From an uncultured Candidatus Poseidoniales archaeon (lineage in GTDB: Archaea > Thermoplasmatota > Poseidoniia > Poseidoniales > Poseidoniaceae): DNA of 64,000 nucleotides. Under the pieces are notes generated by a model. The model was not told the DNA's origin and made no database searches. It was given only the letters and a program-made list of their open reading frames with translations. Location of the stretch: positions 1-64,000 of the forward strand of contig CAJIZC010000017.1 in NCBI GenBank assembly GCA_905181785.1, written 5' to 3'. Shown piece after piece: positions 39,489 to 60,110 of the stretch (the stretch's first letter is position 1; each line of letters opens with the position of its first letter). The position numbers and the translations under genes are program-made.

Positions 39489-39779
39489 TCACTCAGGTGG
39501 TGCTGCTGGACCTGGTTCTTCCATCCCCACGATTTCGTAATTTGATGGAAACAAGGCAATAGCGACGCCGAGAATCAGGCAGACGAGCCCCCATCCAAAC
39601 ATCTGTTGAACAAATAACATCTCGAGTGCAACAACCACCAGCAGCATTCCGCCGAGGTTGGAAATCCATACGAGGCTCTTGAATGTCGAAAGCGTGACTC
39701 CGGGTGTCCCTTCCTTTCGGTAAGGCCCGAACTCTCCTCCAAACCGTTGCGCCGTGTCTTGCTTTCCTTTCTTTGACAT
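39489..39779 (-). CDS. small membrane protein
   Basis: I do not recognise this 96-residue protein. Basic N-terminal 30 residues are followed by two membrane helices (about 34-52 and 58-78) and a Pro-rich acidic C-terminal tail. It is the last gene of a long minus-strand operon, 12 bases after the ferredoxin gene. The position beside a ferredoxin and another membrane protein could mean a small membrane redox unit, but no cofactor residues are present here. Confidence 0.6.
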   Translation of the reverse strand: MSKKGKQDTAQRFGGEFGPYRKEGTPGVTLSTFKSLVWISNLGGMLLVVVALEMLFVQQMFGWGLVCLILGVAIALFPSNYEIVGMEEPGPAAPPE

Positions 39780-39791
39780 TACAATCTCTCC

Positions 39792-40124
39792 TCAGCGGTC
39801 AATCATGGTTATGGCATCGGTTGGGCAAGCCAATACACAGAGCCTGCAACCCGTGCACGCATCGCGAATGATCCGAGCTTTCCGATTTGATTCAACTCGA
39901 ATCAATGGGCTTGCCATATCGACTTTGTACAAATCAATGGCGTCATCGTCGCACACAATGGTGCATTGATCGCAACCGATACAGAGGCGTTCTTCAACAA
40001 ACGCCACGGCGGTTTCCCCGCCTTTTGAGGCAGCATGTTGCTCGCCTCGTTGACGGTTCAGCGAACTGCGAATGCGCAAGGCCTCGGCCTCTCTGCGCTT
40101 CTTCAGGTCATCCGAGGACGTCAT
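39792..40124 (-). CDS. 2[4Fe-4S] ferredoxin-type protein
   Basis: A 110-residue soluble electron carrier. A 47-residue charged N-terminal extension precedes two 4Fe-4S motifs: CIGCDQCTIVC (near 49-59) and CTGCRLCVLACP (near 90-101). The first motif lacks the usual Pro after the fourth Cys and has CDDDA, which may lower or alter its potential. Its start overlaps the stop of the membrane protein gene upstream as ATGA, so translation is coupled. The neighbouring gshA and membrane genes suggest a redox task linked to thiol or membrane chemistry, but no partner can be named. Confidence 0.88.
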   Translation of the reverse strand: MTSSDDLKKRREAEALRIRSSLNRQRGEQHAASKGGETAVAFVEERLCIGCDQCTIVCDDDAIDLYKVDMASPLIRVESNRKARIIRDACTGCRLCVLACPTDAITMIDR

Positions 40125-48696: not shown

Positions 48697-48753
48697 TGGT
48701 TGGAGAATTCCTCCCACTGATAGGCTCATAAACAACGACGCTTTGTGTTATTT

Positions 48754-51700
48754 ATGAACAGCACAATTGTGCCCGCTCGGAAAAAAGTTTCAGCCGCTTT
48801 TTTGGCCGTTTTGATTGCATTGATGTCGGTGACTCTAACAGCCCCTATGGCTTCTGCAATCGGCCCGAATCAAAACGATCTTGGCTCTTCCATGGACCTC
48901 CCTGACAACTCGTCTTCAATCAACAGTTCTCAGGCCGTCATGAACATGAACGGGTACGCTCCTTTGGCTTCTGGTTCCTTGTATGGGGAATTGGATGTGG
49001 GAGACGATGAAGATTGGTTCGCGATGACCCTCAATGCAAACGAAGGGGTGACGCTCCAAATCGCATACAACACCACCTACACGTCTTCAAACGGTTCGAC
49101 CTACACCAATGATTTCGAATTGTGGATGTATGATTCATCAATGAATACGATTGAAGTTTCAATCAATAGTAATCCTGAGGTTGTTTCAACCAATGCTTCA
49201 ACCGGGCCTCATGGAGGCACGGTGTACTTCAAGATCGTTCGGTACGACGGCTATGGTTTCTACACCCTTGACTTCTGGATGTTCAGCACTTCAACAGGCA
49301 ACGGAACTGGAGGCAACGGTACATCACCTCCAACCAACTGCGTTGGAAACGGAACAACAAACTCAGATATTCTTGAGCCAAATGATAGCGTAGCATTCGC
49401 AACATCGGCATCAAGCCTCCCAGTGTATTGCACTGGGTTGTCAATCGATTCGTCAACAGATGTCGATTTTTTCGAAATCGATATGATTTCAGGTGTCACA
49501 TATTACGTCAATATGTCTCTGAACAACGCCAACGGTGATCTTGACCTGCAATGGGAAGACTCGTTTGGGAGTTACTTGACAGGATCGGGAAGCACTTCCA
49601 ACGTCGAATCCATGAGTTATTTTTCCGTTTCCAATCAAACCACCTATGTGCGGGCGTATGGATGGCAAAGCGCCATCAACACCTATGACATTGAAATCAC
49701 AACAGACTTGCCAGGTGGGGGCCAATCTTTTGAATCAGTTTATGTGATGCTGATGAACACCACCAGCGTCAATATTGAGATCGAAGGTCTTACGGCTGGA
49801 ACCAATTATTCTTACAACTATTCGAGCGTCCAATACTTTAACAACGGCTCTTCGACATGGGGGTCTTCAACTGTGGTGAACTTCAACGCCACTGGAACAA
49901 CGTACACGGCCAACGTCACTTCAACCACGCCAATGATGATCGAATCCGAATTTTGCACCGAATCTTACCTCATGGATGCTGCAGGTAGCGTTCTTGATCT
50001 CGATGGCGATTGTGTCTACCTCGAAATGTTGGAATTAGACACACTTTCCTCAACCACCGGTTCGCTTTCTGCTACAAACCTCACATCTGGCACGGACTAC
50101 ACCTTGTGGTGGTTCGTTTACGACTCGGTTGAATTCACCAATAATTTCACATTGTCGAACGACATTGACACGGCGCTTGCAGCCTCGCTTGTTCATGAGG
50201 AAACTGAAAACTTCACAAGCACAACATCATCGGAAACATGGTCTGTAAATTGGACCGGGATCACCACGATGAACCTTCATGAGATGGTTGGCTTCCTTTC
50301 CTACAACAACACAGCGGTTAATTTGAGCGCAGGTGAAGGGTACATTGGAGTCCACTTCACTGATTTCATACCTCAATTGCCTTCAATGGTGATTGATGCT
50401 TACTCAACAAGCAGCACTTCCACCACCAACAACGTTGATGTCAGAGGCTCAGACCTCGTCACAGGTGATTCATACCAATACCAAGTTCGTGTTGTTGACC
50501 AAGCAGGTGCAAGCATTGCTTCTTCCTCTATGATGAATTTCACTGCAACGGCACAAAACATGAGCATGTCGACCTTCAGTTATTCCACGCCCACCGCCTC
50601 TGGTGTGTACTGTGCAGAAGTCCTGCTATACTCAGCCGCAAGTGTCCAACTCATTGGCGACAGTGCTTGTTTCAACCTTGTCTTTGATGATGACAGCGAC
50701 GGTGTGGCCAACGAATTCGATCTTTGTGCCAATTCCTCTATAGGTGCCATCGTCGACCAAGATGGCTGTGAATTGTCACAGAAGGATTCTGATGGCGATG
50801 GATACAGCGATGCAGCAGATGCCTTCCCTTACGATGCCAGTCAGTACTCTGACATGGACGGCGACGGTTATGGAGACAATGCGAACGGCAACAGCCCCGA
50901 TGCTTTCCCCACAGACAGTTCACAGTGGTCGGATGTTGATGGCGACGGCTACGGCGATAACGCTGGTGGCAACGCTTCTGATGCCTTCCCTTACGACCCA
51001 ACTCAATGGTCTGATGCAGATTACGATGGCTATGGTGACAACGCTGCTGGAAACAACGCCGATGAATACCCAACAGATCCAACTCAATGGGAAGATGCTG
51101 ATGGCGATGGTTACGGCGACAATCCAGCTGGAACAAACGGCGACCAGTTCCCCAATGATGCTTCACAATGGGCTGACGCAGACGGTGACGGCTACGGCGA
51201 TAACACCGCTGGAAACCAACCCGATGCTTTCCCATCTGACGCCACTCAGTGGGAAGATACCGATGGTGACGGCTATGGTGACAACACCGGTGGAAACAAC
51301 GCGGACGCTTTCCCATACGATGCCACTCAATGGGCGGACGAAGATGGCGACGGCTTTGGCGACAATCAAGCAGGCAACGACGCTGATGCCTTCCCAATGG
51401 ACGGAACCCAGTGGCTCGACACCGACGGTGACGGTTATGGTGACAACCCAACCGGAACCACCCCTGACATGTTCCCAACCGACGCAAGTCAATGGGCTGA
51501 TGCCGACAATGACGGCTACGGTGACAACGCCATGGGAACCAACGGTGACCAATGCCTCAACACCCCACCAGGCCAAGCCGTTGACAGCACAGGTTGCAGT
51601 ACTTCTCAGAAAGATGGAGACCTCGATGGCGTGATGGACGACCAAGACGCTTGCCCTGATACACCTGCAGGGGAACAAGTGGACATGTCCGGCTGTTCAG

Positions 51701-52851
51701 GATCCCAAGAAGACAGCGATAACGACGGCGTGATGGATTTGTTCGATTTGTGCGCAAGCACACCGCTTGGCTCTAGCATTGATTCAGCAGGATGTGCTGA
51801 CTCCCAATTGGACAGCGATAACGACGGCATTACCAACGATCTTGATGCCTGCCCAATGAGCGCTCCAGATGTTCCAGTCAACGGCCAAGGTTGCGCTGCA
51901 GATGAGCGAGACACTGACATGGACGGCGTTTTGGATGCCGATGACTTCTGTGCTTTGACACCGACTGAAGAAGAAGCCGACGCAACAGGCTGTTCGAACT
52001 CACAGCGCGACGATGACAACGATTCCTTCACCAACGACTTGGATGAATGCCCAAACACTTCGCTTCAATCCACGCCGGATTCTGTTGGTTGCTCACCAGA
52101 GCAATACGATGACGACAACGACCTTATCGACAACACAATCGATGATTGCGCTGCAACGCCTGCAGGTGAGCAGGTGGATCCAGAAGGATGCTCAGCGACA
52201 CAAAGGGACCAAGATATGGACGGCATCAAAGATGCCTACGATCTTTGCCGAGATACAGCTGCAGGTCACGGTCCAGACCTTGATGGATGCTCAGAACACC
52301 AGAAAGATGACGATGAAGACGGCGTCTTCAACGTCGCAGACAGGTGTAAAGGAACAGATGCCAACCAAACGGTCATCGACGACGAAGGTTGCGCCCTAAA
52401 CCAAATCGACACTGACGGTGACGGCGTGAACGATGAAGACGACGACTTTGTCTTCGATGCCAATGAATCACTCGATTCAGATAATGACGGTGTAGCCGAT
52501 CGATACGACGACGCACCATTTGACGCCACCCGAAGCGAAGCTAAGGCAGAGGAAGGCGGTGGAGGCGGGCTTCTATACCCCATCATTGCCATTCTCGTCC
52601 TTTGCGGCCTCGGCGCTCTTCTTTTCGTTCGACGCAGTGAAGAAGCTGCAGGAATGGAATCTGCATTTGCAGAAGCCAATTATGAGGACGCTGCTACGGC
52701 ACAAAATATGGTTGCGGAAGTTAAAAATCTCCCCCAGATTGCTGAAACTCAGGAATGGGAAGAAGACGGTGTGCACTGGTCGAAGGCTGCTGATGGAACG
52801 CTTTCCTACTATGATGCAGGCTCTGAATCTTGGCTTGTTTACGACCAATGA
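48754..52851 (+). CDS. large surface protein with PPC-like domains and TSP3 repeats
   Basis: A 1365-residue membrane-anchored surface protein. A signal peptide (about 8-30) is followed by two regions resembling bacterial pre-peptidase C-terminal (PPC) beta domains (about 60-180 and 205-320). The beta-rich part after this (about 320-650) has many N-x-T sites. Residues about 650-1250 are Asp/Gly-rich TSP3-type calcium repeats, first in units with DGDGYGDNxxGN and then with DQDACPDTPxGxxVDxxGC and paired cysteines. A membrane helix (about 1268-1291) precedes a cytoplasmic tail with a Trp/Tyr motif (HWSKAADGTLSYYDAG, then SW and Y). The ATG at 48754 is preferred to a GTG three codons upstream. 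The function is probably structural or adhesive. Confidence 0.82.
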   Translation: MNSTIVPARKKVSAAFLAVLIALMSVTLTAPMASAIGPNQNDLGSSMDLPDNSSSINSSQAVMNMNGYAPLASGSLYGELDVGDDEDWFAMTLNANEGVTLQIAYNTTYTSSNGSTYTNDFELWMYDSSMNTIEVSINSNPEVVSTNASTGPHGGTVYFKIVRYDGYGFYTLDFWMFSTSTGNGTGGNGTSPPTNCVGNGTTNSDILEPNDSVAFATSASSLPVYCTGLSIDSSTDVDFFEIDMISGVTYYVNMSLNNANGDLDLQWEDSFGSYLTGSGSTSNVESMSYFSVSNQTTYVRAYGWQSAINTYDIEITTDLPGGGQSFESVYVMLMNTTSVNIEIEGLTAGTNYSYNYSSVQYFNNGSSTWGSSTVVNFNATGTTYTANVTSTTPMMIESEFCTESYLMDAAGSVLDLDGDCVYLEMLELDTLSSTTGSLSATNLTSGTDYTLWWFVYDSVEFTNNFTLSNDIDTALAASLVHEETENFTSTTSSETWSVNWTGITTMNLHEMVGFLSYNNTAVNLSAGEGYIGVHFTDFIPQLPSMVIDAYSTSSTSTTNNVDVRGSDLVTGDSYQYQVRVVDQAGASIASSSMMNFTATAQNMSMSTFSYSTPTASGVYCAEVLLYSAASVQLIGDSACFNLVFDDDSDGVANEFDLCANSSIGAIVDQDGCELSQKDSDGDGYSDAADAFPYDASQYSDMDGDGYGDNANGNSPDAFPTDSSQWSDVDGDGYGDNAGGNASDAFPYDPTQWSDADYDGYGDNAAGNNADEYPTDPTQWEDADGDGYGDNPAGTNGDQFPNDASQWADADGDGYGDNTAGNQPDAFPSDATQWEDTDGDGYGDNTGGNNADAFPYDATQWADEDGDGFGDNQAGNDADAFPMDGTQWLDTDGDGYGDNPTGTTPDMFPTDASQWADADNDGYGDNAMGTNGDQCLNTPPGQAVDSTGCSTSQKDGDLDGVMDDQDACPDTPAGEQVDMSGCSGSQEDSDNDGVMDLFDLCASTPLGSSIDSAGCADSQLDSDNDGITNDLDACPMSAPDVPVNGQGCAADERDTDMDGVLDADDFCALTPTEEEADATGCSNSQRDDDNDSFTNDLDECPNTSLQSTPDSVGCSPEQYDDDNDLIDNTIDDCAATPAGEQVDPEGCSATQRDQDMDGIKDAYDLCRDTAAGHGPDLDGCSEHQKDDDEDGVFNVADRCKGTDANQTVIDDEGCALNQIDTDGDGVNDEDDDFVFDANESLDSDNDGVADRYDDAPFDATRSEAKAEEGGGGGLLYPIIAILVLCGLGALLFVRRSEEAAGMESAFAEANYEDAATAQNMVAEVKNLPQIAETQEWEEDGVHWSKAADGTLSYYDAGSESWLVYDQ
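50780..51560 (+). repeat. coding tandem repeats (TSP3-like) in surface protein gene
   Basis: About ten imperfect units of 72-78 bases encode DGDGYGDNxxGNxxDxFPxDxxQWxDxD. The units are alike in protein sequence and partly in DNA, so recombination between them could change copy number. They are protein-coding, not a CRISPR array. Confidence 0.85.
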
Positions 52852-53753: not shown

Positions 53754-56582
53754 TCAAGCCTCAACACCGGTGCTCGGTTGCACGGCTGCTGCTGCTTGTG
53801 CCTTCTTTGCCTCGACTTGGCGAGCAAGGAAGGAAACAACGTCAAGGATCTCGATGTCAGCGTAGCGCTCATCGCCTTCGAACTTCAAGCACTCAAAGTG
53901 AGATACACACTTCGGGCAAGAGGTAAGCATGGTGTCAGCACCTGTGGCGCGGATTTCTTCCATGCGGGTGACACGAAGGGCACGAGCGTTTTCGTTGCAG
54001 GACATCATGCTCGAGACACCACAGCACATGGCGTCTTCGCCGCTGTGTTCCATCTCAACGATTTCAACGCCTTCGACGCCAGCAATCAGTTCACGAGGCT
54101 CTTCATAGACGCCCATTTGCCGACCGAGTCGGCAAGGGTCGTGGTATGTGACCGTTGTTTCTTCCTCTGCTTTGAGGTTCATGTCAAAGCCGTTCTCCAC
54201 GAGGAATTCGGTGGTGTGCATGACCTTGACGCCTTCCAGTTCGTAGTCACGAGCGAAGGTGCGGAAGCACTCAGCGCACGAAGACACAAGCGTGTCGATG
54301 CCAGACTGTTCGATCTTCTTCTGGTTGTAGGCCTTGAGCTTGTCAAAGACTTCATCGAGGCCTTGCCACTTTTGGTCGTGGCCACAGCACTTGAGGAAGT
54401 CTCGTCCGAGGTAGTTGACATCAACGTTCATGTCGTCAAACAATGTGAACGCAGCGGTTGTTGAATCGCCAAGGTTCATTTCGCCCTCATTGACATGGGA
54501 GAAGACCATCTCTTGGTCGAGGTAGTCAACACAGCCAGGGTAGTAGCCGATGTTTGAGGTGATTGGGTAGTCTTCCACAGCGATGAAGTCGTCGTCTGCC
54601 TCTTCTTCTGCTTCGGCTGCAAGAACCGCTTGAAGAACGGTGTGCGGGATTTCCGCTTGTGGTCCACCAACAATCAGCGAACGGCGGATGTCCACATACG
54701 AGTCATAGTTGACCAGTTGTGGGCATGCATTGGTACAGGCTGTGCATGTCAGGCAGGAGTACAGCGGTACGCCGTCGTCCTCATTGTTCCATGAGTTGTA
54801 GATGATGTTGAGTTTGTCTCCACCGTTGAACAATCGTACAGGGCAAGCATCGTCGCACAAATCGCAGCCGTAGCACTTGTTCATTTCGAATTCATAACCA
54901 CGTGCCATCGAGCGCAAGAGCACGAAGACCACTGCACCAAAGGTGAGGCAGGGAATGAACATGGCATAGGTCAACTTTGCATCGAGGGCCTTCGGGTTGG
55001 TGTGGTAGGTTGGGTTTTCGATCGCAGCGTAGTCCGTGCCACCAGCAGCCATTTGGCTTTCATTGGTCAAATCAACAGTACGTCCTGCCATAGCGGCGGG
55101 GGCATCTTCAGTCCAAACCAGGAGTGGCTGGAAGGTTGCAATTTGGAAGGAGGTTTCAGTCACAATGCTGTCGTTGTAGGCAAGTGCCCCTTCGACGGTG
55201 ACAATGTATTCGTAGGTGTATTCTCCGACTTTGAGTTCGGTGCTTGCACCTGCACAGTCATCGATGCTGGCCATGGTCTTGCCGTTGCTGTTGCTGAGGG
55301 TGAGTGTCGAGGAAATCATTGACACGGTGTTGATGTCGTTGATTTTTCGTTCTGAAGCACGGTATTCACACATCAAATCTGTCGTCAAGGTCTCCACGCT
55401 TTCATGGTGACCATCCGGGAAATGGTTGAGGTCTTCTGTGACGGTGAAGTTACCGGTTGTGATCCAGCCTAGACCGCCGTTGAAGGTGGTCGAGTTTGCA
55501 GCAGCGTTGATGCCAAATTCAGCGTTTTGGTGGCCGTTGGAATCTGTGAAATCGGTGATGATGTAGCGAGCAGGCTGGTAGATGCTCCAATCCAACCATG
55601 CGGTTGTCGGCACGGTGCCGTCGCCGCTCCATCCACGGTCATCTGTGAACTCGTTGACCTCGTGAACATGGACGTCGGTTGGCTGGGCTCGCATGGCTTC
55701 GAGTTCCGGGTACAAATCGTGCGTCAAGCCCTTGATGGTCAACAGACCGCCTTGGTCCCAGAATCCGTCGTCATAGGTGTCCCATGTTGCAACGGTACCG
55801 GCGGTCGATATGAGCAACGAACCGATGAGAATTTGCTTGGCATGGCCAGGTGTAAATCCTGCGCCCCATGCTTTGACAAGCAAAGCGCGAGCGATGAAGT
55901 AGATGCAGATCCATGCTAAGACGCCGGTCATCATCCATGGTATGGAATTGAACGCATCTGCAAGCCACGGGGCACGAGTGCCACATAACAGATCGCCATG
56001 GCTGTCTAACTTACAGAAATCAGACCTGTTTTTGCCGTATAACTCCAAGAAGATGTTGATCGAAAACACCGAGATGAACCAAATGTGCGCTAAATACACC
56101 GCTCCAGCGGTAGCAAACCACGGATCTTCCACGGGTCGCTTCTCACGGCCGCCAAGGAACGGAGGCAAAGCGAGGATGCTGACTGGAATGCCAGTGAGTG
56201 CAGCGCCCCACCAAGCAGCGTTCCAAGGGAACACAGGTTGGCCGACGATTTCGCCGATAAACCCAGTTGGCACCGTGAATTGAGGCAGGTATTCGCCCCA
56301 TCGCAGGTATCCATAGGAAAACAGCACGTACCAATCAGGGAACACGAACCCGGCTTGCGCATAGGGGTCAGCGGCTCCGTGGAGTGGTGGTGGTATCAGC
56401 CATGCGTAAAACAGCAAGACTGCGCCCATGAAGGCGAAGATGATAGAGTCGCGAAGCACCTCTTGTGGCCAGAAACCGTGACCGGTTCTGGTACGCACAC
56501 GCTTCTCTCCAGCAATTTGGAGTTGTTCTTTTTCTTCCATATAGGAAGATGCAACACGGCCAAGATTCTCAATAAGTCCCAT
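53754..56582 (-). CDS. cytochrome b C-terminal domain fused to HdrD-like Fe-S protein
   Basis: A 942-residue protein joining two functions. Residues about 40-270 form the membrane helices of the C-terminal half of cytochrome b (subunit IV type), with the quinol-site motif PDWY followed by VLFSYGYLRWG near 83. A beta-rich outside domain (about 290-540) and another helix (about 545-565) follow. Then come two 4Fe-4S motifs, CYGCDLCDDACP and CLTCTACTNACP (near 567-622), and two complete CCG domains with CCGHD and CAECF, and CCGVS and CPKC, typical of heterodisulfide reductase subunit D. Topology puts the Fe-S part in the cytoplasm. GGAGGA lies seven bases before the ATG. It follows the cytochrome b N-terminal gene by 18 bases. 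The electron partner is unknown. Confidence 0.85.
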   Translation of the reverse strand: MGLIENLGRVASSYMEEKEQLQIAGEKRVRTRTGHGFWPQEVLRDSIIFAFMGAVLLFYAWLIPPPLHGAADPYAQAGFVFPDWYVLFSYGYLRWGEYLPQFTVPTGFIGEIVGQPVFPWNAAWWGAALTGIPVSILALPPFLGGREKRPVEDPWFATAGAVYLAHIWFISVFSINIFLELYGKNRSDFCKLDSHGDLLCGTRAPWLADAFNSIPWMMTGVLAWICIYFIARALLVKAWGAGFTPGHAKQILIGSLLISTAGTVATWDTYDDGFWDQGGLLTIKGLTHDLYPELEAMRAQPTDVHVHEVNEFTDDRGWSGDGTVPTTAWLDWSIYQPARYIITDFTDSNGHQNAEFGINAAANSTTFNGGLGWITTGNFTVTEDLNHFPDGHHESVETLTTDLMCEYRASERKINDINTVSMISSTLTLSNSNGKTMASIDDCAGASTELKVGEYTYEYIVTVEGALAYNDSIVTETSFQIATFQPLLVWTEDAPAAMAGRTVDLTNESQMAAGGTDYAAIENPTYHTNPKALDAKLTYAMFIPCLTFGAVVFVLLRSMARGYEFEMNKCYGCDLCDDACPVRLFNGGDKLNIIYNSWNNEDDGVPLYSCLTCTACTNACPQLVNYDSYVDIRRSLIVGGPQAEIPHTVLQAVLAAEAEEEADDDFIAVEDYPITSNIGYYPGCVDYLDQEMVFSHVNEGEMNLGDSTTAAFTLFDDMNVDVNYLGRDFLKCCGHDQKWQGLDEVFDKLKAYNQKKIEQSGIDTLVSSCAECFRTFARDYELEGVKVMHTTEFLVENGFDMNLKAEEETTVTYHDPCRLGRQMGVYEEPRELIAGVEGVEIVEMEHSGEDAMCCGVSSMMSCNENARALRVTRMEEIRATGADTMLTSCPKCVSHFECLKFEGDERYADIEILDVVSFLARQVEAKKAQAAAAVQPSTGVEA

Positions 56583-56600: not shown

Positions 56601-57467
56601 TCAGTGTGGTTCCGCAATGCCTTGTACCCAGACAATGAATAAGTGAATAATGATCAATGTGGTCACAATCACTGGGAGGATAAAGACGTGAATGAAGTAC
56701 ATACGTGTGACGGTTCGAGGCGTAAGCGACGAGCCGCTGAACAACAGTGTTGCAATGTACTTTCCAACAAGCGGACTGGAGTTTGCGAGGTTAATGCCAA
56801 TCACTGCAGCGCCGTAAGCAAGCGAATCCCACGGCAATAAGTAACCCGAGTATCCGAAGACAATGGTGAGCGCCATCAGGGCGACACCAATCAGCCAGTT
56901 GAGTTCACGAGGGTTACGGTAAGCGCCGGTAAAGTACACGCGGCACATGTGTAAGAACACGCTTGCTACCATGAAGTGAGTCGCCCAGTGGTGGACCGCT
57001 CGAATGATGTAGCCAAACGGAAGCTCGGTCATGATGAACTGCATGCTTGCGTAAGCGGGTGAAGGATCGCCTTCGCCACCGGGCACGTAATAGATGCCAA
57101 GTACGGTTCCGGTGATGACGAGGATGATGAAGGAAAGGAACGAGATACCACCAAGGCAGTACAGTGGGTACCAGTACCAAATAATGCGAAGCTTGTACTT
57201 CTCTGCGTGCGTCAATGGCATTTGGCGGTGCATGTTGTAATAAGCACCTTTGGACATGTTCCAATAGTCTTGGAGGCGGAAGCGAGTGTCCAGCCACGAG
57301 AAGATCCACAAGAACAGCCGCTCAGCGAACCCCATCTTGCCGGTTGATTCCACGGCACGGAGAATTTCGCGTCGAGGGAGGTCGTCGTTTTCCTTGCGGA
57401 GCGTGAGCGCCACGAGGACGATAACGAAAGCGATAAAGAACCACAGAATCCAAAACATTGTTGTCAT
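56601..57467 (-). CDS. cytochrome b, N-terminal (diheme b6-like) subunit
   Basis: The heme-bearing membrane subunit of a bc/b6f-like quinol-oxidising complex. The 288-residue protein has a first helix, an amphipathic stretch, and then the four-helix core. The histidine pairs are in RAVHHWATHFMVASVFLHM (near 155-173) and YFIHVFILP through IIHLFIV (near 255-275). GYLLPWDSLAYGA near 208-220 is the usual Qo/heme segment. The start ATG at 57467 has GAGGTG six bases upstream; the same site lies too close to the GTG at 57476. It is read between the Rieske gene and the cytochrome b C-terminal fusion. Confidence 0.93.
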   Translation of the reverse strand: MTTMFWILWFFIAFVIVLVALTLRKENDDLPRREILRAVESTGKMGFAERLFLWIFSWLDTRFRLQDYWNMSKGAYYNMHRQMPLTHAEKYKLRIIWYWYPLYCLGGISFLSFIILVITGTVLGIYYVPGGEGDPSPAYASMQFIMTELPFGYIIRAVHHWATHFMVASVFLHMCRVYFTGAYRNPRELNWLIGVALMALTIVFGYSGYLLPWDSLAYGAAVIGINLANSSPLVGKYIATLLFSGSSLTPRTVTRMYFIHVFILPVIVTTLIIIHLFIVWVQGIAEPH

Positions 57468-57477
57468 TGTAAACACC

Positions 57478-58323
57478 TCAGTCGCAATACGTGTACCAGT
57501 CTATGTAGTCGGTGATGCCTTCGATGACATCGCCATTGAGTTCAATTGGGATGAGGGGCAGACCGACAGGGGCTGGACCGCCGGCCTTGCGAATACCTGC
57601 ATAGTTGAAGGTTGCACCGTTGGAGCGGTTTCTGTTGGTGTTCATCTCTAGCGCCGTTGGGTCGAACCTTGAAGAGTGGCAGATGCAGAATAACTTGGTG
57701 CCACCATCGTCACCACCGCCGGGCGTCCACGAATCTTCGGTGAAGGAATTGGAGACAAGTTGCCATCCTGGGATGCAGCACAAGTGAGTGCAGCGGCCAA
57801 AGATCATCACGAGGTTCTCGGATGGGAAGATGCGGGGGTCGGTGTCGCTCAAGTCTTCGAAGTGGCCGATGGTTTTGCCAGTTTCATCGACGCCTTCCAT
57901 GAATTGGAAGCGAGCCAATCCGCTTGATTCAGGGGTGGATTTGTTTTCTGAGTGGTTGACATAGGTGACGACAACAGGAACGCCGTTCCAAATGCCAGCA
58001 GCGCCAGCGGTGCCGGTGTTCGACTTTGCGGCTTCTTCTACGAAGTCAGTCTTGGTCATCAGTTGCAGGTGCTTTGCACCGTACCATGCTTCGTCTTCTC
58101 GACCCTTGGCCCAGAACACAACGCCAAGTTCTCCAGCGTTGCTGCCACCGGGTGGCAAAAGAATGGAAGCAAATCCGAGGACGCCGAGCGAGGCGGCCAA
58201 GACACCAGTTGCGGTGTTGAACCCGTAGCGCAAAAATTGGCGACGGTTGATGTAAGAGCCACCGGTTTCGGTGATTTCAATAGCGTCAGCAGGTGCTGGT
58301 TTGAGGTTGTATTCACGCGCCAT
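57478..58323 (-). CDS. Rieske iron-sulfur protein
   Basis: Carries the 2Fe-2S cluster that takes the first electron from quinol. The 281-residue protein has a twin-arginine-type signal INRRQFLRYGF (near 26-36) and an anchoring helix (about 38-56). The Rieske motifs are CTHLCC near 177-182 and CICHSSRFD near 210-218. They provide two Cys and two His ligands, and the extra Cys in each box fits the disulfide of respiratory Rieske proteins. The export signal implies folding in the cytoplasm before transport. It is followed by the cytochrome b gene after ten bases. Confidence 0.95.
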   Translation of the reverse strand: MAREYNLKPAPADAIEITETGGSYINRRQFLRYGFNTATGVLAASLGVLGFASILLPPGGSNAGELGVVFWAKGREDEAWYGAKHLQLMTKTDFVEEAAKSNTGTAGAAGIWNGVPVVVTYVNHSENKSTPESSGLARFQFMEGVDETGKTIGHFEDLSDTDPRIFPSENLVMIFGRCTHLCCIPGWQLVSNSFTEDSWTPGGGDDGGTKLFCICHSSRFDPTALEMNTNRNRSNGATFNYAGIRKAGGPAPVGLPLIPIELNGDVIEGITDYIDWYTYCD

Positions 58324-58329
58324 AATGGA

Positions 58330-58773
58330 TCACCACTTGTACTCCTTCCAATCTTTGGTGTGCTCAGGAATAAATTTGTTCTGAGCGTGCTTGACAATAA
58401 TGGTGTCAGGGAGGACGAATTTGAGGTAAACCATCCCCATCATGCACAAGGTGATGAGCATAATGCCGAGGTGGTATGCGAGTTGTTGTTGATCCCATCC
58501 TTTGGCTAGGCCGTAAATCATGGAGAAGGTCCAGTAACACGACCAGAAGATGCCCCACACGAAGAACATCAACGTCAGGTACGAGCCACCTGATGGGGCA
58601 AGGGATGCGCTGACAATGGTTCCTGGTTCTGCAATGTTGAACACGCCGTGGTCGATGGCGGATACCATCTCTTCTTCGGTGAGGCTTGCGTTTTCAAGGG
58701 CCTTTCGAGCGTCTTCCACGCTGATGGTTCCTTTGGCAACGCCTCGCAGGAGGGTGGAAATTGTGTCGTCCAT
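58330..58773 (-). CDS. small two-helix subunit of the Rieske/cytochrome b cluster
   Basis: A 147-residue protein not recognised by itself. The N-terminal 50 residues are soluble and helical (TISTLLRGVAKGTISVEDARKAL). Two hydrophobic helices (about 65-85 and 98-120) follow, then a charged tail. GAGGTGA lies six bases upstream of the ATG at 58773. Its start overlaps the stop of the preceding gene (TGATG) and the Rieske gene follows after six bases, so it is probably an accessory subunit of the complex. A sulfur-cycle or cytochrome c role is not evident. Confidence 0.65.
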   Translation of the reverse strand: MDDTISTLLRGVAKGTISVEDARKALENASLTEEEMVSAIDHGVFNIAEPGTIVSASLAPSGGSYLTLMFFVWGIFWSCYWTFSMIYGLAKGWDQQQLAYHLGIMLITLCMMGMVYLKFVLPDTIIVKHAQNKFIPEHTKDWKEYKW

Positions 58774-59591
58774 CACTGGTCACCTCTTCGCATCAACTTG
58801 TAACGCAAACGCAGTTGGTTGGACCGGCCTTTGTAAGATGTTGAAAAGCTGTAGCGCAGCAGCAATCCTGCAAACGCAATCACGGCAAGAACTGCGCCGA
58901 AACCAAGCAATCCGAGCCAGTGTGCTCGGAGTTTGGCACCCATGTGGTGCAGGTCGACGCCGTGGTGGGCTGGTTCAGGTGGGCTGACGTTTCCGTCGCC
59001 TGCGAACAGGGTTCGTACGCCCAAGGCGTCGGTTGTTTCGTCGCCTTCTTGGAGGGCGAACAAGAGTTGGTTCCACTTGTCTTCAACGCCAGGCAGTTGG
59101 TCGCCGTTCACGGAATTGCCTGTGATCCAGAAGTTAACCGTGCCTTCGCCTGTTGCTGGGGCTTGCCATGTGACGACCCATAGCCGCTCTGTGAATGCCG
59201 ATGATGCTTCGGTGTGGGTGAGCGTGGTCGGGTCTTCTTCCCAATTTTGCACATCTTCGCCGCCCAACACGCCGGAGGAGACGCGCATTGCGAAGCCTGC
59301 GGTGTAGACGCCGGTGGCTTCGGGGCCGCCGATGATTTGGAGGTGCATGGTGTATGTCTCGCCGCCAACCCATCCGAATGGAACATCGTCGAGGATGACT
59401 TGGATGGAATTGTCAGACGCTCCGTTGTGGCACAGGCAGCCTTCCTTAGCGACGTCGTCGATGGTTTCGCCAGCGTTGCTTTGTTCGCCGCCAATACCGG
59501 TGTGGTAGGAAGTGACAAGGCCGGGCATCAGCAACAAAAGGATGAGACCGGCAACAAGTCCGGTTCGAGAAGAAATTGACTCGCGTAGCAT
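58773..59591 (-). CDS. exported reelin-like/choice-of-anchor protein with CxCH motif
   Basis: A 272-residue protein with a signal peptide (about 8-27), an extracellular beta domain (about 30-200) and a C-terminal membrane helix (about 223-245) with a basic tail. The domain begins with EGCLCHNG and continues GGETYTMHLQI through TAGFAMRV, recalling reelin-like/choice-of-anchor domains that often carry a CxxCH heme c site. Here the motif reads C-L-C-H, one residue short of canonical. It could bind heme by one Cys, or not at all. The ATG at 59591 starts the signal peptide; a longer frame upstream is unlikely. It heads the Rieske/cytochrome b cluster and may replace cytochrome c1. Confidence 0.65.
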   Translation of the reverse strand: MLRESISSRTGLVAGLILLLLMPGLVTSYHTGIGGEQSNAGETIDDVAKEGCLCHNGASDNSIQVILDDVPFGWVGGETYTMHLQIIGGPEATGVYTAGFAMRVSSGVLGGEDVQNWEEDPTTLTHTEASSAFTERLWVVTWQAPATGEGTVNFWITGNSVNGDQLPGVEDKWNQLLFALQEGDETTDALGVRTLFAGDGNVSPPEPAHHGVDLHHMGAKLRAHWLGLLGFGAVLAVIAFAGLLLRYSFSTSYKGRSNQLRLRYKLMRRGDQ

Positions 59592-59759
59592 AGTCACACC
59601 CAGTGTTTTGAGCCACCCATAAGTGCCCCTTAAACATTCCCAGCAGAAACGCTGGTTCAGTGCCTTGCAGTGGGCCGTTTTTTCCTTGAAATTTGGCTGT
59701 TTAAAAGGGGTGGCTCTCCTCTCGTTTATACCTTCGTAAAACGAAGCAGGCTGGGAACC

Positions 59760-60110
59760 ATGCAAACTGCAGAAGGGTTCTTTGAGGAGACCCGCCGAGA
59801 AAGGGCCAGTGAGCCCATGACGACAAACTTTGATAACGTCTATGATTTGACCACTGAACAACTTGAGCAACTTGACAATGCGGAAGAAATGATGTTGCGC
59901 AATGATCTTGGCGCCGCTGAGCGTTTGCTGTTATCGATGCTAAAAGCCGATGAAGAATGCATCCCTGTGTTGTCCAACCTGGGGCATCTTTACGGGCGTC
60001 ACCTGTCGGAATTTGAGACGGCCATCGAGTTTTACGATCGCGTTCTTGCACTCGAGCCAGACAACGCTTGGGCTCGAGACGCTCGCCGTCGCTACCTCCG
60101 CTACGTTTGA
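59760..60110 (+). CDS. small TPR-like protein
   Basis: A 116-residue helical protein. Residues about 35-110 contain two tetratricopeptide-type helix pairs (LEQLDNAEEMMLRNDLGAAE and FETAIEFYDRVLALEPDNAWA). This predicts a protein-binding scaffold with no catalytic residues. The ATG at 59760 is used; an ATG 19 codons later (59817) would also leave the repeats intact. The FtsZ-like gene starts six bases after its stop, so coupled translation and a shared job are likely. Confidence 0.7.
   Translation: MQTAEGFFEETRRERASEPMTTNFDNVYDLTTEQLEQLDNAEEMMLRNDLGAAERLLLSMLKADEECIPVLSNLGHLYGRHLSEFETAIEFYDRVLALEPDNAWARDARRRYLRYV

Follow-up and report, generated by a model that had tools for sequence, protein, structure and literature searches.

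The window analysed here, 64,000 nucleotides of contig CAJIZC010000017.1 (assembly GCA_905181785.1) from an uncultured Candidatus Poseidoniales archaeon of Marine Group II (MGII), encodes on its minus strand (positions 53754–56582) a protein in which subunit IV of a Rieske/cytochrome b complex is fused to an iron–sulfur module akin to HdrC and HdrB, heterodisulfide reductase subunits of methanogens. We conclude that the complex built on this fusion protein is the complex III of MGII and Marine Group III (MGIII) archaea, with a hard-wired link between ferredoxin and quinone. A b6f-type Rieske/cytochrome b complex would carry, on the cytoplasmic side of subunit IV, an HdrC+HdrB 'wire' (hereafter the arm). 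Through the arm, cytochrome b would be connected on its quinone-reducing side (Qn) with a 2[4Fe-4S] ferredoxin dedicated to this role. An architecture of this kind, an HdrCB wire between ferredoxin and Rieske/b complex, is in our judgement quite probable, an estimate that is based on the fetched loci. For the architecture together with an electron flow from ferredoxin to quinone, the case is evenly balanced.

Subunit IV and an HdrCB-like Arm in One Reading Frame

The fusion gene (Table 1), for which the initial annotation gave no strand, starts with ATG and contains no internal stop. In a Pfam search, its product matched Fer4 domains and, over two stretches, the CCG domain (8.9e-23), the 4Fe-4S motifs lying at residues 570–581 and 610–621. 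The cytochrome b C-terminal domain (PF00032) was not detected by Pfam in the window protein; two relatives, P0007 and P0008, score above the cut-off for this domain, an MGIII relative below it. Against solved structures, the profile of the fusion family matches subunit IV of the b6f complex (2e74_B, 1.7e-5) and the C-terminal halves of bc1 cytochromes b (best 5.8e-12), and the same profile also matches EtfD (2e-39) and HdrB/HdrC. PDWY or PEWY and both 4Fe-4S motifs are found in 73/73 aligned rows longer than 550 aa, and CCG site 2 is complete in 69 of them, the other four being truncated loci. A family scan of the window fusion found no flavin domain. The initial annotation, which had read subunit-IV-type helices, two 4Fe-4S motifs and two CCG domains in one frame, is borne out by the intact open reading frame (ORF), the motifs and the profile matches.

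The fusion is spread across the class. Its family f3 bears the name MGIII in public records, and MGII presumably corresponds to the sister families f1 and f2. When the class was searched with the fusion protein, 289 of 292 genomes gave a match at 1e-10 and 271 a match better than 1e-40; the remaining 18 matching genomes have weak matches alone, at the level of an EtfD-like paralogue. PDWY, the two 4Fe-4S motifs and CCG site 2 share a single frame in 82 fetched loci (69 distinct sequences), a count which leaves out loci cut by the end of a contig or stretch. An assembly join or frameshift at the junction, or a fusion seen only once among relatives, had initially been named as possible sources of error. 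The 69 distinct one-frame sequences and the class-wide matches rule out the join and the frameshift, and the proposed look at other MGII genomes found the full fusion in loci from all 22 sampled genera. In MGIII, a gene for subunit IV with the 2[4Fe-4S] domain is followed by a separate gene for the CCG pair. Two Thermoplasmatota families of one small class, 'nzgw66' (f22) and 'CSMAG' (f25), have the fusion without the domain predicted to lie outside the membrane in MGII, and another CSMAG record (L189) has the two-gene arrangement of MGIII.

Outside the phylum, the survey is thin, consisting of one genome-contig scan with two peptide patterns, and is not evidence of absence elsewhere; of the 28 loci that it returned, 27 bear archaeal titles and one is labelled Chloroflexi. 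This last one (L183, titled Chloroflexi bacterium EAC10) has the MGIII operon and is probably mislabelled or mixed. A scan of viral contigs with the fusion gave no match, and in a plasmid search with the f22 fusion, coverage of the query stayed below 80% in all 45 records returned; the 15 of them that were listed match in the Fe-S half alone. Ten complexes lack the arm and have a plain subunit IV (L191–L196, L233, L234, L237 and L238, L195 being from the haloarchaeon Halospeciosus flavus), and no CCG protein was found in their fetched stretches. In one of them, subunit IV is fused to a lectin-like Laminin_G_3 domain (L234:6494-8233), another fusion at the same place.

The two halves of the MGII protein evolve at different rates. 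In 13 MGII loci, the outside domain is only 26–82% identical to that of the window, whereas the Fe-S part is 72–98% identical. This conservation, together with the retention of both 4Fe-4S motifs noted above, makes it very improbable that the arm persists as a mere structural relic and transfers no electrons, although one ligand of CCG site 1 is gone in some lineages. In a single-chain AlphaFold model (mean pLDDT 56.6), only residues ~650–935, the CCG part, are well predicted, and the outside domain mostly falls below 50. A Foldseek search with the CCG part of the model matched EtfD, LutA and HdrB, and EtfD is the closest solved structure to the arm.

Regarding topology, the f25 fusion has four helices by hydropathy, and counts of Lys plus Arg near the membrane of 5, 2, 8, 0 and 5 from the N-terminus to the arm. 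This positive-inside pattern points to a cytoplasmic arm. The signal is weaker in the window protein, where two expected helices are below threshold; in the segment of residues 191–270, both helices are detected in L108 and L110, and the first alone exceeds the threshold in the window. From these charge patterns, we infer that the arm lies on the cytoplasmic side.

Origin of the Arm

In a tree of 65 Fe-S proteins, midpoint-rooted for drawing only, the arms (among which count nine MGIII CCG genes and one f25 piece) form one branch with support of 99/100. Together with the HdrC+HdrB proteins of other Thermoplasmatota (26 rows, own support 84/84), they are split from ten EtfD-like and other CCG proteins (97/97). 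By its sequence, the arm is akin to HdrCB. An HdrA-like gene stands beside HdrCB in 6/6 loci inspected, two of these neighbours being confirmed by profile, and FlpD was found in 4/4 HdrCB proteins tested. HdrA matches at 1e-10 were obtained in 0/12 MGII genomes, 1/3 MGIII genomes, 3/3 f22/f25 genomes (f22 partial) and 2/2 others. An HdrA-dependent flavin bifurcation in MGII was rejected on this count, yet f25 has an HdrA/FlpD-like neighbour.

On a tree of 40 cytochrome b rows, the presence of the arm needs one change; MGII, MGIII, f22 and L189 share a node supported at 98/92, and the node which adds f25 is supported at 82/58.

The genome of the window also encodes a second CCG protein of 678 aa (G000:C28:14294-15268), in which membrane helices with a weak NarI match precede a 2[4Fe-4S] domain and a CCG part. 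Its layout is EtfD-like, and it groups with EtfD-like proteins, outside the arm branch.

A Ferredoxin Gene Beside the Fusion

A query of 35 genomes with the MGIII neighbour gene revealed a 2[4Fe-4S] ferredoxin beside the fusion. Among 32 MGII genomes, hand-picked to cover all 22 genera, the ferredoxin gene and that of a small membrane protein (TM2) lie at most 2.3 kb from the fusion in 29, on the same strand in 18 (including all 14 f2 genomes) and inverted in 11. The ferredoxin is not in the fetched stretch of the other three (G002, G244 and G238); in G002, it lies 14.5 kb away, and the rest of G244 and G238 was not searched for it. In 3/3 fetched MGIII loci, the gene after the CCG gene encodes a 2[4Fe-4S] protein with an additional electron-carrier domain, ferredoxin in two of the three scanned proteins and flavodoxin in one. 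A match to this gene follows in 13/18 named MGIII loci, and the contig ends there in the other five. Such ferredoxin or flavodoxin domains point to a low-potential one-electron carrier as the partner of the arm. A 2[4Fe-4S] gene is also located 3' of the arm genes in f22 and L189. The 'ferredoxin-like partner' suggested at the outset is supported by these conserved adjoining genes.

The best NCBIfam match of the window ferredoxin is rnfB (TIGR01944), with 50.5 bits against a cut-off of 68.7. The best rnfB match of a genome is the ferredoxin of the arm in 12/21 MGII genomes and another small ferredoxin in 9/21; the cut-off was passed in 1/25 genomes, an MGIII one, and by no tested MGII gene. 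The ferredoxin of the arm could not be upheld as the one clear RnfB of MGII. Other Rnf subunits are reported absent in MGII in excerpts of PMC6336850.

A 2-oxoacid:ferredoxin oxidoreductase (POR) family is present in 12/12 MGII genomes, and reduced ferredoxin is probably made. NuoF was found in 2/12 (the window's genome, G000, is only 80% complete), so that most of the 12 MGII genomes searched show no entry of NADH by NuoF. The 'canonical NADH dehydrogenases' ascribed to MGII in a passage of PMC6336850 sit oddly with this count.

Cluster Ligands of the Arm

The ligands of the CCG sites were compared in 78 distinct arm stretches, drawn from 171 ORFs of which the rest were truncated or duplicates; a complete site 2 was a selection criterion. 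Site 1 has its five cysteines in 57 stretches, window included, CSG in 16 and CAEG in five. The incomplete sites belong to MGIII rows, L189 and one MGII genus (g22, genome G098), and other MGII members keep the full Hdr set. Two extra cysteines by site 2 are near-invariant (MMxC in 77/78, HxxC in 78/78). They are not specific to the arm, as all four sister HdrCB proteins with a readable site 2 have them too.

We know of no heterodisulfide in these aerobes. This counts against a thiol/disulfide enzyme in which the two CCG clusters would reduce or form a small disulfide as in HdrB, with quinone as the other partner. Such an activity could be read from the five-cysteine site 1 of the window and most stretches, from the preserved site 2 with its two extra cysteines, and from the Foldseek match to HdrB; the sharing of these cysteines with sister HdrCB proteins, and the loss of one site-1 ligand in 21/78 stretches, make it unlikely. 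According to excerpts of PMC13083937, both noncubane clusters of Hdr are bridged by a cysteine that can be displaced (Cys81 and Cys234), and a Thr in the equivalent place of site 1 makes the cluster of EtfD linear and non-catalytic. The CSG change resembles this Thr replacement, and CAEG, in our reading, would remove the counterpart of Cys81. With such losses in site 1, a relay fits better than a conserved disulfide enzyme. As a conserved function, the thiol role initially considered for the arm has against it the ligand losses in MGIII, L189 and the one MGII genus.

The Rieske/Cytochrome b Operon

The operon runs in the order choice-of-anchor V (anchV) protein, small membrane subunit, Rieske protein, cytochrome b and fusion, the neighbours in the window being upstream of the fusion and on the same strand (−). 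Its cytochrome b matches 1vf5_A with an E-value of 5.7e-44, and the cysteine of its YCLGG motif (residue 107) aligns with the b6 cysteine which, we take it, binds haem c_n. This cysteine is present in 30/33 arm-bearing cytochromes of the tree vs 1/10 distinct arm-less ones, with L239–L243 (more distant cytochromes) and L244 (truncated) omitted from the scoring, and L231, L232, L235 and L236 set aside as repeats of L194, L196, L192 and L193. All 23 MGII rows have it, and 3/6 MGIII rows have Ser. Strict coupling of the haem c_n cysteine with the arm was rejected, as it is broken by these three rows and by the arm-less L238, which has Cys.

In two MGIII loci, L107 (= locus L181) and L184, Ser at the c_n position is accompanied by CSG at CCG site 1. 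The partner protein of L107 has the flavodoxin domain and that of L184 is of the same length; changes in c_n, CCG site 1 and partner may go together in these loci.

Both Rieske motifs, CxHxxC and CxCHxS, are conserved in 78/82 distinct sequences, including the window type. The window protein has Phe at a position where Tyr raises the Rieske potential, an effect with a known exception (PMC12954380, in excerpt). Family scans of the window operon proteins gave no match to cytochrome f or c1. The anchV protein contains a CX1CH motif (GCLCHN in the window), which is found in 51/53 distinct homologues and in 2/4 from arm-less complexes; the protein could be a c-type subunit that binds one haem through a contracted motif and takes the place of cytochrome f. 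Its true start is probably inside the ORF, as 15/16 relatives are ORFs of 228–325 aa.

Direction of Electron Transfer

In the mechanism that we favour, ferredoxin reduced by 2-oxoacid:ferredoxin oxidoreductases would pass its electrons to menaquinone at the Qn site, the direction judged more likely. The path would lead through the 4Fe-4S and CCG clusters of the arm, plus haem c_n in most lineages. Electrons of ferredoxin would enter the Q cycle directly, akin to a built-in port for cyclic flow. EtfD, whose soluble part is homologous to the arm, is itself described as an electron wire to menaquinone in excerpts of PMC13083937.

Several points weigh against this scheme. Assembly into one complex, electron transfer and its direction are what we infer from sequences and gene order. 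The ferredoxin gene is not adjacent to the fusion in the window's own subclade, and the neighbour in f25 is an HdrA/FlpD-like protein (FlpD 1.4e-17; HdrA2 1.9e-37, below cut-off), not a ferredoxin. Coupling of haem c_n and arm is loose, as described above, and support for all arms in the cytochrome tree is modest, with a program warning of long branches meeting. Unpumped oxidation of ferredoxin would waste energy if the NuoF-less complex I also takes ferredoxin. Finally, the authors of the study of anammox complexes reject the corresponding direction of entry on energetic grounds, in excerpts of PMC12954380.

The opposite direction is possible, with distinctly less to recommend it. By quinol bifurcation, a quinol at the Qo site would send one electron via Rieske to oxygen and the low-potential one to ferredoxin, by way of the b haems and then the arm, and respiration would be used to make reduced ferredoxin instead of returning the electron to quinone. 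Anammox bacteria have Rieske/b complexes of the same layout, which have been proposed to bifurcate quinol electrons to NAD(P) (excerpts of PMC12954380). The dedicated ferredoxin partner suits this proposal, which should be thermodynamically possible with a high-potential Rieske protein and oxygen, and spares the energy loss of the opposite direction. With POR enzymes present, however, ferredoxin is not obviously scarce, and the window Rieske protein has Phe, not the potential-raising Tyr. On the Qn side, the cysteine for haem c_n has been retained, as would suit a reduction of quinone, although the anammox proposal also uses haem c_N (PMC12954380, in excerpt). If bifurcation took place, this aerobic archaeon of the ocean would perform it with quinone, not flavin, and the two paths would branch at the haem c_n pocket.

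CCG proteins often serve flavoproteins. The arm could be an entry port for one of these (ETF, or a lactate- or glycerol-phosphate-type dehydrogenase), with ferredoxin as a helper, and the structural proximity to EtfD would fit. We consider this improbable, as the genome has the separate EtfD-like CCG protein in another group of the tree; inspection by eye of five loci with listed ORFs revealed no gene for an ETF or a dehydrogenase, though no search aimed at ETF genes was made. The ferredoxin-to-menaquinone route is retained as the preferred reading. From the function first proposed, a quinol-linked enzyme with a cytoplasmic HdrB/HdrD-type Fe-S arm is supported; thiol handling and bifurcation are conjectural.

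Relation to Known Systems

The complex resembles b6f and bacterial b6-type Rieske complexes by its split cytochrome b, four His, Rieske motif, subunit IV and haem c_n cysteine. It differs from b6f by PDWY in place of PEWY, by operon proteins without a cytochrome f/c1 match, and by the HdrCB arm and outside domain borne on the subunit IV of the MGII complex. The nearest precedent comes from anammox bacteria, whose Rieske/b complexes (Kuste4569-4574 and Kustd1480-1485) have NAD(P)-reductase arms. As described in excerpts of PMC12954380, these complexes share the b6-like cytochrome b, the cytoplasmic Fe-S arm, a proposed haem c_N path and a subunit IV of more than three helices; they have a multihaem outside part and, as arm, an unfused FAD/NAD(P) reductase, whereas the MGII arm is HdrCB, fused and associated with ferredoxin. 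HdrDE and HdrBC likewise combine 2[4Fe-4S] with two CCG sites, HdrDE being membrane-bound (PMC13083937, in excerpt), but the membrane part is here a Rieske/b complex, and HdrA is missing from the MGII genomes searched. EtfD/EMO (Mycobacterium EtfD, PDB 9ojn) has a homologous soluble part and wires a cytoplasmic donor to menaquinone; unlike the fusion, it has a NarI-type membrane part in place of subunit IV and is without one site-1 cysteine, where the window protein has five. With the Rnf complex, the likeness is confined to the below-cut-off match of the ferredoxin to RnfB.

No report of an HdrCB–subunit IV fusion was found in searches of openly licensed papers without their supplements. The statement that HdrD-like CCG domains are not known as parts of Rieske/b complexes agrees with the literature searched, but cytoplasmic arms of another kind, the NAD(P) reductases, do occur in anammox complexes (excerpts of PMC12954380). 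The first puzzle of Tully et al. is answered, as the other half of cytochrome b is present, fused to HdrCB. Their second puzzle possibly finds an answer in the RnfB-like ferredoxin of the same module, a weak link given the rnfB counts and scores reported above. If ferredoxin does feed quinone through the arm, MGII and MGIII respire via a complex joining the ferredoxin pool and the Q cycle, and ferredoxin entry at the Qn/haem c_n site becomes testable where the wire is covalent.

Features of the Window

Table 1. Positions, strand and basis of assignment of the features discussed (aa, amino acids).
Feature	Position	Strand	Basis or remark
Fusion gene	53754..56582	-	942 aa: subunit IV + extra helices + outside domain + helix + HdrC-like 2[4Fe-4S] + HdrB-like CCG pair
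Subunit-IV part, residues 1-190	56013..56582	-	PF00032 in relatives; profile match to b6f subunit IV
PDWY (Qo-site motif), residues 82-85	56328-56339	-	Sequence
Two further membrane helices in MGII, residues 191-270; absent in f25	55773..56012	-	Hydropathy
Outside domain, residues 271-536, without family match	54975..55772	-	Pfam, comparison of loci
Membrane helix leading into Fe-S part, residues 537-556	54915..54974	-	Hydropathy
HdrC-like 2[4Fe-4S] domain, residues 565-625	54708..54890	-	Pfam, profile, motifs
CCG site 1 (C684, CC732-733, CAEC769-772: C769, C772)	54267..54533	-	Alignment
CCG site 2 (C817, CC853-854, CPKC889-892: C889, C892) and extra C862, C898	53889..54134	-	Alignment
Cytochrome b, four-helix (b6-like) half	56601..57476	-	Four haem-ligand His (alignment with PetB)
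Rieske protein, CTHLCC ... CICHSSRF	57478..58323	-	Motifs
Small membrane subunit	58330..58776	-	DUF7318 match below cut-off; kept in operon
Anchored outside protein (choice-of-anchor V), CX1CH motif	58773..59870	-	Candidate c-type haem subunit
2[4Fe-4S] ferredoxin (RnfB-like)	39792..40124	-	13.6 kb from fusion in window; adjoins fusion in other genera
Small membrane protein (TM2) travelling with ferredoxin	39489..39779	-	Gene neighbourhood

Two further observations concern domains outside this scheme. The cytochrome b of f22 and f25 carries several N-terminal Ig-like Big_5 domains (L102:788-3613 and L101:10086-11975). In the window, positions 48745–52851 contain an ORF of 1368 aa; by eye, numerous acidic repeats of a DxDxDG-like kind can be made out in it, and a stretch close to its C-terminus is hydrophobic.

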